A stretch of DNA of 36,469 nucleotides, taken from IMG/VR virus record IMGVR_UViG_3300024346_000229, positions 1 to 36,469 of that record; one strand, given 5' to 3'. Positions 10,002 to 13,060 of the stretch are shown here, in pieces (within the stretch, counting starts at the first letter, position 1; the number at the start of each line of letters is the position of its first letter). The stretch comes from a virus. The position numbers and the translations under genes are program-made. A model generated the notes under the pieces. That model saw only the letters and a list, made by a program, of their open reading frames with translations. It did not search any database and was not told the DNA's origin.

Positions 10002-10853
10002 TTACCAAAATTTATTAGGATTATAATTAATTGCAAGTATATGTTTTATTCGACTATCATCAGCTGATATTCTTCCTCTAACTTTAATAGAATATTTATA
10101 ATCATATGTTTCCACAATATAATCAGCGTATAAAGATTCCGTAAATTCATCTTTATTAATAATAATCATGTTATTAGATTTACTATTCTTAAACCAGTCA
10201 GCCACACGAATTTGATCATCTTTAGTAAACGAACCATCAGGTGAATATTTATTAAATTTAGTTGTATATGGTGGATCTAAAAACACAAAATCTCCCGTAG
10301 TTGCCGTTTTCACACAATTTTCAAAATCACCATTTAATATTGTAGTATTATCGAAAATATCTTGATATTCAGTATTCCAATCAATCCCCCTTAATTTTGT
10401 ATACCACCCGAATGGTACATTATATTCACCTTTAGAATTAAATCGATTCATACCACTAAATGATAATTGACGTAATATCCAAAATTGAATTGCCCTATCC
10501 ACATCATTATCAAAGTTTGAACTTCGGTAATAATAATATAATTCACCAGCGGTACTTTCAAATTGTTCTTTAGTAATACCCTCAAAATGCATCGTATTAT
10601 ACTCTTTTATTACACCTTGTAGTTTGGGTATTAATATATGTGAGTTTTCTTTTAATTGTGTATAAAAGTTATATATATCATACCACTTGTCATTTATAAC
10701 AGATGGTGTATGATGTATATTTAACCAAGCGGCGCCACCACCTACGAATGGTTCATAATATGTATTGATTTTTTCCGGCAGATATGATTTTATCTTTGGT
10801 AATTCTTTCGTCTTACCACCTGCCCACTTAAAGAATGGTTTCATATGTTTCAA
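10002..10853 (-). CDS. dam: D12-class (Dam-type) adenine-N6 DNA methyltransferase
   Basis: A 283-residue enzyme that methylates adenine using S-adenosylmethionine. It shows FFKWAGGK at the N-terminus (motif X), YEPFVGGGAAW (motif I, SAM binding) and FLDPPY (motif IV, catalytic DPPY). Length and motif order match phage and bacterial Dam/DpnM enzymes. Target specificity cannot be read here; GATC is the commonest for the class, but EcoRV-like and other targets occur. MKHMKPFF gives two possible ATG starts three codons apart. It lies 19 bases after the gene of a PD-(D/E)XK nuclease, suggesting a restriction-modification pair. Alternatively it is a solitary protective methylase, as in T4. Confidence 0.92.
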   Translation of the reverse strand: MKHMKPFFKWAGGKTKELPKIKSYLPEKINTYYEPFVGGGAAWLNIHHTPSVINDKWYDIYNFYTQLKENSHILIPKLQGVIKEYNTMHFEGITKEQFESTAGELYYYYRSSNFDNDVDRAIQFWILRQLSFSGMNRFNSKGEYNVPFGWYTKLRGIDWNTEYQDIFDNTTILNGDFENCVKTATTGDFVFLDPPYTTKFNKYSPDGSFTKDDQIRVADWFKNSKSNNMIIINKDEFTESLYADYIVETYDYKYSIKVRGRISADDSRIKHILAINYNPNKFW

Positions 10854-10872
10854 TCTTTTAATTGGTTATATA

Positions 10873-11478
10873 TTATAAATATGATGATTGTATTTTTTTA
10901 CCCAACTCTCTAAAAAATGAGTAATATGAGTTTTCATCAATATCCACATTAAGTATCCTAAATAAATCTTTAGGGTATGTTACATCTACATTATTTGTAT
11001 TACATTGTTTAATTTTAGAGTTATATTTTTTAGGAAGGCCACTTTCATCATATACAGCCCAAGTCATTAAAGAACTATCAATTGTATATCCCTTATATTC
11101 ATTTTTAAGATAATCACTAATAATTTTTATTTTATTATATGTAGCTGGTAGTTTTTCTGTATCTAATTCTAAATTTGATTTCAATTCTCTATAATAAACT
11201 ATTTTATTTTTAGTATCCATAAATAATAAATCAATATAATTTGATTTACCTTTACTAACATTTTTTATAACACCATCCGGTAAAATTTCCATACCACAAT
11301 CCTCTACAATAAATTTAAACCATTTTTCAAAATTTCTACCAACCTTAATATATAAAGAGGCAGTGGATGGTTGGCTACCAAATAATAAATAAGGTAATCC
11401 TCCTGGGTTAGATAATGTAGTAGTTTCTAAAATACTATCAATTATTTCTTCTGCTTTTTTTGTATATTTTGGAATCAT
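10873..11478 (-). CDS. Putative PD-(D/E)XK restriction-type endonuclease
   Basis: A 201-residue protein next to the Dam gene. The chain has Glu51 in a predicted helix (NFEKWFKF), Asp83 in a hydrophobic strand (YIDLLF) and Glu98-Leu-Lys100 at the end of the next strand (VYYRELKSN). This gives E...D-x14-E-x-K, the metal-binding core of PD-(D/E)XK nucleases. The size is typical of Type II restriction enzymes. From memory, the Type II enzyme MunI has the same D-x14-E-x-K spacing, but I see no wider similarity. The gene is led by a promoter cassette shared with another accessory gene. I infer cleavage of unmodified DNA; a Holliday resolvase or a host-genome-degrading nuclease is also possible. The sequence specificity is unknown. 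Confidence 0.65.
   Translation of the reverse strand: MIPKYTKKAEEIIDSILETTTLSNPGGLPYLLFGSQPSTASLYIKVGRNFEKWFKFIVEDCGMEILPDGVIKNVSKGKSNYIDLLFMDTKNKIVYYRELKSNLELDTEKLPATYNKIKIISDYLKNEYKGYTIDSSLMTWAVYDESGLPKKYNSKIKQCNTNNVDVTYPKDLFRILNVDIDENSYYSFFRELGKKIQSSYL
10874..10881 (-). promoter_or_regulatory. TATTTATA box before the methylase gene
   Basis: On the minus strand CATATTTATA overlaps the last codons of the nuclease gene and ends 20 bases before the methylase ATG, the same spacing seen at tail genes. The methylase could therefore be expressed separately from the nuclease. Confidence 0.4.
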
Positions 11479-11520
11479 AATTTAATTGTTTTAAGTTTTA
11501 TCTCTCTCTTTATTACATAG

Positions 11521-11552
11521 TAAATATACGAAAAAAATCCGAGATAAACAAG
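11521..11552 (-). promoter_or_regulatory. Early-type promoter of the nuclease gene (copy A)
   Basis: CTTG at 11552-11549, 20 bases, then TATATTTA at 11528-11521. The leader to the ATG at 11478 is about 35 bases and contains GAGAGAGAT, the nearest thing to a ribosome site here. Confidence 0.65.
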
Positions 11553-11565
11553 TTATTTCGGTTTT
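11535..11565 (-). terminator. Hairpin terminator ending the 124-residue gene
   Basis: On the minus strand CCGA pairs with TCGG, then after one mismatch ATAA pairs with TTAT around a 5-base loop, followed by seven T. It lies 10 bases after the stop of the gene at 11576 and overlaps the promoter of the next gene. Confidence 0.6.
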
Positions 11566-12165: not shown

Positions 12166-12480
12166 TTAGTATTTCCAAGTTGAAGATGCAACACTTCTCA
12201 ATTCACTTGTTAAATTACTTACCAAGTACTCCAACAATTCATCCCTTGATATTTTTACTACGAACTGCCTGTCAGTTTCACTTTTACCAACATTGTTTAT
12301 TACAGCTGTAACTAAATAATCATCACCATTTATGGAAACTGATGTATCGTATAAGGTAGGTCTACCTTTAAATTCAGTTGGAATTACTTTTCGTATTTTA
12401 TTAAAAGCTATTACTTTTAATTGGGATTCGAATAAATTACCATCTGCAGACTCAATAAAAATAACGGAATTTGTTTTCAT
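12166..12480 (-). CDS. Hypothetical accessory protein
   Basis: A 104-residue protein (MKTNSVIFIESADGN...). It appears to alternate beta-strands (VIFIES, SVSINGDDYLVTAVI, RQFVVKI) with a C-terminal helix (RDELLEYLVSNL). No catalytic or zinc motif is visible and I do not recognise the family. It is led by promoter cassette copy C, so it is a single-gene unit like the nuclease gene behind copy A. It may be a host take-over or anti-defence protein by position only. Confidence 0.7.
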   Translation of the reverse strand: MKTNSVIFIESADGNLFESQLKVIAFNKIRKVIPTEFKGRPTLYDTSVSINGDDYLVTAVINNVGKSETDRQFVVKISRDELLEYLVSNLTSELRSVASSTWKY

Positions 12481-12522
12481 AATTTAAATGTTTTAAGGTT
12501 TAACTCTCTCTTTATTACATAG

Positions 12523-12554
12523 TAAATATACGAAAAAAATCCGAGATACACAAG
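12523..12554 (-). promoter_or_regulatory. Early-type promoter, cassette copy C
   Basis: CTTG at 12554-12551, 20 bases, then TATATTTA at 12530-12523. It sits inside the terminator hairpin of the upstream gene, so termination and initiation are packed into one 45-base block. Confidence 0.65.
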
Positions 12555-12567
12555 TTATTTCGGATTT
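12537..12567 (-). terminator. Hairpin terminator ending the SegE-like gene
   Basis: On the minus strand AAATCCGA pairs with TCGGATTT (8 bases). After one A-C mismatch, ATA pairs with TAT around a 7-base loop, followed by a run of T. It begins 10 bases after the stop at 12578. Confidence 0.7.
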
Positions 12568-12577
12568 ATTTTTATGT

Positions 12578-13033
12578 TTATTCATCATCTATCGAACTTG
12601 CATCTTTTCTGAAATAAGTTCCGTTGATATTCGAATTATAATATTCATAATCAGTTTCTAATACACCTTTAACGAAAAGATATTTGGTTTCTAAATAAGA
12701 TAATTGTTTTTTTGCATATGCATATTGTAATATTTCACGTGTGAATGTAATACCTTTTTTGATGTCCTCATTTAAATCTTTATTAGAACCTGTATATATT
12801 TGCCAATCAGATTCCTTTTTCACCATTTCATATAATTTCTTACGTTTATCCGTTATAAGTTTAGATTCTTTTTTTCCGAACTTACGCTTCCTTACCGAAT
12901 ATAATGATTTTTTACCAATATATTTTTTACCATTTGATGTGACTATTAGATATACAAATCCAATTGCATCATCTGGCATATCAGTAACACCATTGACTGA
13001 TTTATTATTATATTTCCATTTTTCTATAACCAT
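12578..13033 (-). CDS. SegE-like GIY-YIG endonuclease
   Basis: A 151-residue protein with an N-terminal GIY-YIG core: GFVYLIVTSNGKKYIGKK near residues 26-43, with Lys/Arg-rich strands after it. The pattern SDWQIYTGSNKDL and the C-terminal LSYLETKYLFVKGVL match the SegE-like family of T4-type phages. Those enzymes cut DNA as free-standing homing endonucleases and spread their own gene. The ATG at 13033 is preferred to a TTG seven codons upstream because the conserved part starts just after it. Catalytic Tyr residues of GIY and YIG are present, but the downstream Arg and Glu cannot be assigned with certainty. It sits at the edge of the accessory island and ends at a hairpin terminator. Confidence 0.8.
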   Translation of the reverse strand: MVIEKWKYNNKSVNGVTDMPDDAIGFVYLIVTSNGKKYIGKKSLYSVRKRKFGKKESKLITDKRKKLYEMVKKESDWQIYTGSNKDLNEDIKKGITFTREILQYAYAKKQLSYLETKYLFVKGVLETDYEYYNSNINGTYFRKDASSIDDE

Positions 13034-13060
13034 GATTGTAATTGTTTTAGACAAGAATGT

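Follow-up and report, generated by a model that had tools for sequence, protein, structure and literature searches.

The question raised by this locus is whether a Dam-type methylase gene (M) and the small gene in front of it (R), both carried by a T4-like phage, make up a working restriction–modification (R-M) pair. R-M systems have been called 'nearly absent' from phages, with 9 found in 831 genomes and many methylases counted as solitary (PMC4176335). The DNA analysed, referred to as the window, is a stretch of 36,469 nucleotides (IMG/VR record IMGVR_UViG_3300024346_000229). Besides R and M, it codes for T4-like replication and baseplate proteins (a primase, an SbcC-like nuclease and a baseplate wedge protein), a gene content which, in the 36 kb fragment seen, fits a virulent phage, one that would have no lysogenic state in need of stabilising.

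The methylase and the predicted nuclease

M (positions 10002–10844, minus strand) codes for a Dam/DpnM-type (D12) adenine-N6 methyltransferase of 280 residues. The open reading frame was called as 10002–10853 with a TTG start, the TTG at 10853 adding three residues; the true start is probably the ATG at 10844 (MKPFFKW...), since the methylase of the related locus L027 begins with MKPFFKW. The open reading frame list places both genes, on the minus strand, at the positions that a preliminary description had given. Its assignment of M to the Dam type, made from FVGGG and DPPY motifs, was borne out: both catalytic motifs are intact, M is a member of the TIGR00571 Dam family at 182.8 bits (cut-off 114.85), and matches were obtained to PF02086 (1e-39) and to the DpnM structure 2dpm (3e-36). 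The scarcity of GATC in the window (58 sites seen, 127.5 expected) was considered as a clue to specificity and dropped, as CTAG and CATG are even rarer.

R (positions 10873–11478, minus strand) codes for 201 residues. In an alignment of 16 relatives, with 16–60% identity to the window R, the columns G47, E51, D83, E98, K100, D106 and K109 are invariant; E51, D83 and E98-x-K100, already picked out in the preliminary description, are on this conservation a real motif beyond chance. An AlphaFold2 model, fed with the 16-member alignment, reached a pLDDT of 84.8 and a pTM of 0.80. In order, it contains a helix at 39–60 including E51, a short strand at 64–65, a strand at 84–88 following D83, a strand at 93–100 including E98-x-K100, a helix at 109–127 and a strand at 132–139. 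The resulting alpha-beta-beta-beta-alpha-beta core is the one expected for PD-(D/E)XK nucleases, in the element order of that core.

Structure prediction for 10873–11478, one of the checks proposed in the preliminary description, returned a PD-(D/E)XK fold. The majority of the top PDB fold matches belong to the PD-(D/E)XK superfamily, namely BstEII, Card1, VC1899, arenavirus endonucleases, the BspD6I small subunit, Kpn2I and XisH, with BstEII, BspD6I and Kpn2I being restriction enzymes; a few are proteins of other kinds, e.g. the Ulp1 protease. TM-scores of these matches were low (0.3–0.45), which supports the superfamily and not a close family for R, and RNA-cutting and CARF nucleases are among them, so that a restriction enzyme is unproven by the fold alone. 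In the viral fold library, the best match was an 'uncharacterised' protein of phage S-CAM8 (TM 0.76/0.82), and the protein placed before the methylase of phage STML-198 matched as well.

Sequence profiles gave a similar picture. R was matched over residues 36–193 of 201 by phrog_26553 (8.8e-12), which has no function assigned. Pfam held no family for R, and the Hjc resolvase family PF01870 gave no match to the window R at E ≤ 1. Against the HinfI family (NF045831) R obtained 19.3 bits (5.6e-4), the cut-off for membership being 175 bits, and against PADLOC REase_II a weak match (2.2e-4); its relatives showed catalytic-core similarity to NF045831 and to REase_II PDLC03573/PDLC03491 of up to 5.7e-9. 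Searching PDB sequences with R, both as a single sequence and as a profile, yielded chance matches only. Scans with exact short patterns and one-sequence confirmation, a method that leaves room for distant cellular relatives, found no cellular copy of R in genome contigs (two alignments) or plasmids. Taken from sequence and model, R is predicted to be a PD-(D/E)XK nuclease with an intact restriction-type active site.

Linkage of the two genes and exchange of the nuclease

With R alone as query, M was found to adjoin R in 13 of 14 IMG/VR loci (12 times downstream, once upstream); in the remaining one the contig stops 77 bases past R. A second set, collected by M, comprised 85 loci (79 from the search, five earlier loci and the window). 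A PD-(D/E)XK-like open reading frame lies near M in 63 of these 85, a count that includes many near-copy loci and some nuclease families recognised by their motif alone (L074, L085); it stands directly before M in 59, after M in three and two genes before M in one. Within the clade of the window's M (17 rows), all 15 loci uncut by a contig end contain a nuclease. In the isolated phages S-WAM2, S-CAM8, STML-198 and KP179, a 'hypothetical' gene of 187–210 residues abuts or overlaps the 5' end of a related methylase gene, likewise in the order R then M. This order thus spans T4-like phages of Synechococcus, Salmonella and Klebsiella and many IMG/VR contigs, R being labelled 'hypothetical' there. 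T4-like phages with solitary Dam genes (RB49-like E26, S-H38, S-SSM5) served as controls: these genes had no comparable nuclease neighbour, and beside the methylase of phage Tribble no nuclease of R's kind was found.

Judged by these gene neighbourhoods, R and M are stably linked and travel together, and the pair is a recurrent, largely unannotated cassette in T4-like phages, not the exception among them for which the preliminary description had taken it. Some loci appear to carry further methylase genes. By eye, the translation after M in L101 (4397–4867) and L008 (6331–6804) showed another putative protein like a DNA adenine methylase, different from M, and in L009 (1384–2322) an unrelated methyltransferase-like frame was seen upstream of a reversed cassette, with M first. 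In Klebsiella phage KP179 (L007, 2501–4185), two tandem Dam-type genes follow the nuclease, of which one belongs to the R-M type and the other to the solitary T4 type.

The nuclease next to this methylase lineage is not always a relative of R. At least five partner groups were distinguished: HinfI-like enzymes including the window R; enzymes matching PADLOC REase_II PDLC03487 (1e-24 to 5e-8); the EcoO109I family (PF14511, 1.2e-7, above the cut-off); Hjc-like proteins in enterobacterial phages, those of KP179 and STML-198 matching archaeal Hjc PF01870 weakly and below the cut-off; and nucleases with SKxKSFN motifs. The predicted model of a third nuclease family (L022/L050) had a pLDDT of 51.8 and was not used, and matches of the D-family profile to M genes were ignored as an artefact of one M sequence inside a small profile.

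When the nuclease labels were placed on the methylase tree, at least 19 changes were required, the minimum possible being 6. The M genes of the window and of L027, its closest relative by M, are sisters (100/99) with 76% identity; their nucleases are unrelated, an EcoO109I-family enzyme occupying the place of R in L027. Conversely, the R of L001 is 60% identical to the window R and its M merely 47% identical to the window M, and in L021, by M close to L001, the gene two places upstream codes for an EcoO109I-like nuclease. On the tree and the alignments, the nuclease is swapped while M and the control signals persist. A tentative proposal built on this, which we hold at somewhat less than even odds, is that in T4-like and related phages a constant Dam-type M marks the genome within a constant early/late layout, with an exchangeable slot for at least five PD-(D/E)XK families of presumably one specificity; repeated replacement would evade protein inhibitors made by hosts or rivals and leave the methyl mark unchanged.

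Control signals and proposed working of the cassette

Directly before the promoter of R, a terminator-like hairpin (CCGAAATAACTTGTTTATCTCGG) with a T run behind it lies at 11539–11561 (minus strand). It is weak by shuffling (z-score −1.09) and was accepted as terminator-like because it is duplicated together with the promoter box and because a hairpin stands at the matching place in L027. The promoter-like site of R, TTG-N20-TATATTTAC at 11520–11551 (minus strand), has a −33/−7 pattern like that of Bacteroidota, whose promoters combine TTG with TAnnTTTG at this spacing; since R's promoter fits this pattern, a Bacteroidota host is likely for the phage. The preliminary description had called the R promoter repeated, and indeed the terminator-promoter block recurs nearly base for base at 12472–12602 (minus strand), before a gene of 104 residues ending at 12480, and the minus strand has four copies of the box CGTATATTTAC against an expectation of 0.01, every copy lying 25–50 nt before a gene start. 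The minus strand between 9667 and 12600 holds small genes annotated without function (93, 124, 104 and 57 residues), several with an R-type promoter box, and is probably an early accessory region. A gene for a SegE-type GIY-YIG homing endonuclease (12578–13054; PF19835, 9.9e-27) lies near the cassette.

The additional box ascribed to the methylase was also recovered. It reads ATATTTATA, lies inside the last codons of R (10874–10882, minus strand), 38 nt before the ATG of M, and is common to structural genes. It occurs in 7 of 29 upstream zones, with 0.18 expected and a maximum of 3 across 2000 simulations; the minus-strand sites (5254, 10882, 14485, 17146, 22118, 28612 and 31650) stand 28–43 nt before gene starts. 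Since ATATTTATA is shared by tail-fibre, structural and other late-looking genes outside the R region, it is read as a candidate late promoter element. Read on the opposite strand, the core of the box, TATTTATA, becomes TATAAATA, the core of T4 late promoters.

Both signals recur in L027 and L100, near-copy contigs of one phage, where a hairpin and TTG-N20-TATGTTTG precede the nuclease and ATATTTATA stands 37 nt before M, with an unrelated nuclease between. Because both are kept there, we infer that an early R and an early and late M would be the layout on either side of the nuclease exchange.

The reading preferred here, with a probability of about 0.78, is a type II-like phage R-M cassette in which R would be expressed early and M both early and late, and which would cut unmethylated host or competitor DNA. 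It was preferred because the PD-(D/E)XK fold prediction is joined by an R-then-M order conserved in distant T4-like phages, and because partner nucleases within the one methylase lineage match type II models (PF14511 for EcoO109I; REase_II at 1e-24). The same evidence supports the pairing of a restriction-type nuclease with the methylase in the preliminary description. M would methylate a short site in the phage DNA, perhaps GATC-like. Through the box that it shares with tail genes, M would be produced late, and progeny genomes would be fully methylated by the time of packaging. An infecting genome would then arrive already protected, and R could safely be made first from its host-type early promoter because of this late-made M. 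Unmethylated DNA in the infected cell, be it the host chromosome, a competing phage or a plasmid, would be cut by R, which would free nucleotides, silence the host and exclude rivals.

A working R-M pair might instead owe its maintenance chiefly to selfish stabilisation or to its use as a weapon on coinfecting phages, not to host DNA breakdown, a possibility that takes a considerable, though minor, share within the reading just given. The GATC R-M system of Marseillevirus spares host DNA, rival viruses being its proposed target, and its nuclease, too, is transcribed ahead of the methylase (PMC7253447). Repeated exchange of the nuclease likewise fits an arms race. On the other side, the cassette of STML-198 and KP179 adjoins denB and lies near ndd, both genes of host-DNA attack, although this part of the genome is likewise an accessory hotspot. 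Chloroviruses with adjacent R and M genes degrade host DNA early, presumably by packaged restriction enzymes (PMC7019647). Attack on host DNA is regarded as slightly more likely than exclusion of rivals to be the main selected role of the R-M cassette.

It is unlikely that R is a structure-specific nuclease of phage DNA metabolism (e.g. a Holliday-junction resolvase or a repair enzyme) whose position beside M is incidental or serves methyl-directed repair. The weak matches of archaeal Hjc to nucleases beside enterobacterial M genes point in this direction, as does a review of jumbo phages in which resolvase roles were proposed for uncharacterised restriction-fold proteins (PMC7824862), the accession of one of which neighbours a T4-like Dam gene. 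Against it speak the occurrence of R never without M wherever the contig continues, the presence of at least five nuclease families beside one methylase lineage, two of them matching type II models, and the solitary Dam genes of T4-like phages, which lack such a nuclease. That M alone is useful, as a shield from host restriction of the kind common among solitary phage methylases (PMC4190342, PMC4176335), and that R is a decaying remnant of an acquired bacterial R-M system is very improbable, given that the whole frame and every motif residue of R are intact and conserved at 16–60% identity in distant phages, that R retains its own promoter, and that pattern-based scans found no copy of the R family in bacterial genomes or plasmids.

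Relation to known systems

No description of the R-M cassette or of its nuclease exchange was found in the open-access literature. The linkage suggests that a methylase lineage counted as solitary is accompanied by nucleases so divergent that earlier searches missed them, overlooked partners including those of isolated cyanophages and of Salmonella and Klebsiella phages; a defence system regarded as 'bacterial' looks to be a weapon that phages use recurrently and that annotation has passed over. An old question becomes testable, namely whether lytic phages beyond T4 use methylation to distinguish their own DNA from that of the host, and restriction enzymes to destroy whatever is not theirs. 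If the cassette is what it appears to be, it would, in addition, offer new restriction enzymes of small size.

Among known systems, DpnII/MboI-type type II R-M systems likewise place a D12 adenine methylase, to which M is related through DpnM (3e-36), next to a PD-(D/E)XK nuclease. The window pair differs in being encoded by a T4-like phage, with the nuclease first, a host-type promoter for R and a late-type box for M, and R was not alignable to DpnII-type enzymes by the searches made. To the HinfI family and REase_II, R has weak catalytic-core similarity; it lies far under the HinfI cut-off, is about 60 residues shorter and has a Dam-type partner methylase, whereas M.HinfI belongs to another methylase class. 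Members of phrog_26553 (S-CAM8, S-WAM2) are homologous to R, and that of S-CAM8 shares the predicted fold and the place before a Dam-type methylase, yet they are annotated as hypothetical. Chlorovirus pairs (CviAII, CviJI etc.) resemble the cassette as virus-encoded, adjacent R and M genes; attack on host DNA is their experimentally favoured role, with packaged nucleases held responsible (PMC7019647), but they belong to viruses of eukaryotes, whose virions contain the nuclease. The Marseillevirus GATC system (mel_015/mel_016) is also virus-encoded, with its nuclease transcribed first (PMC7253447), and differs in that it belongs to an amoeba virus, leaves host DNA undegraded and has its methylase packaged.
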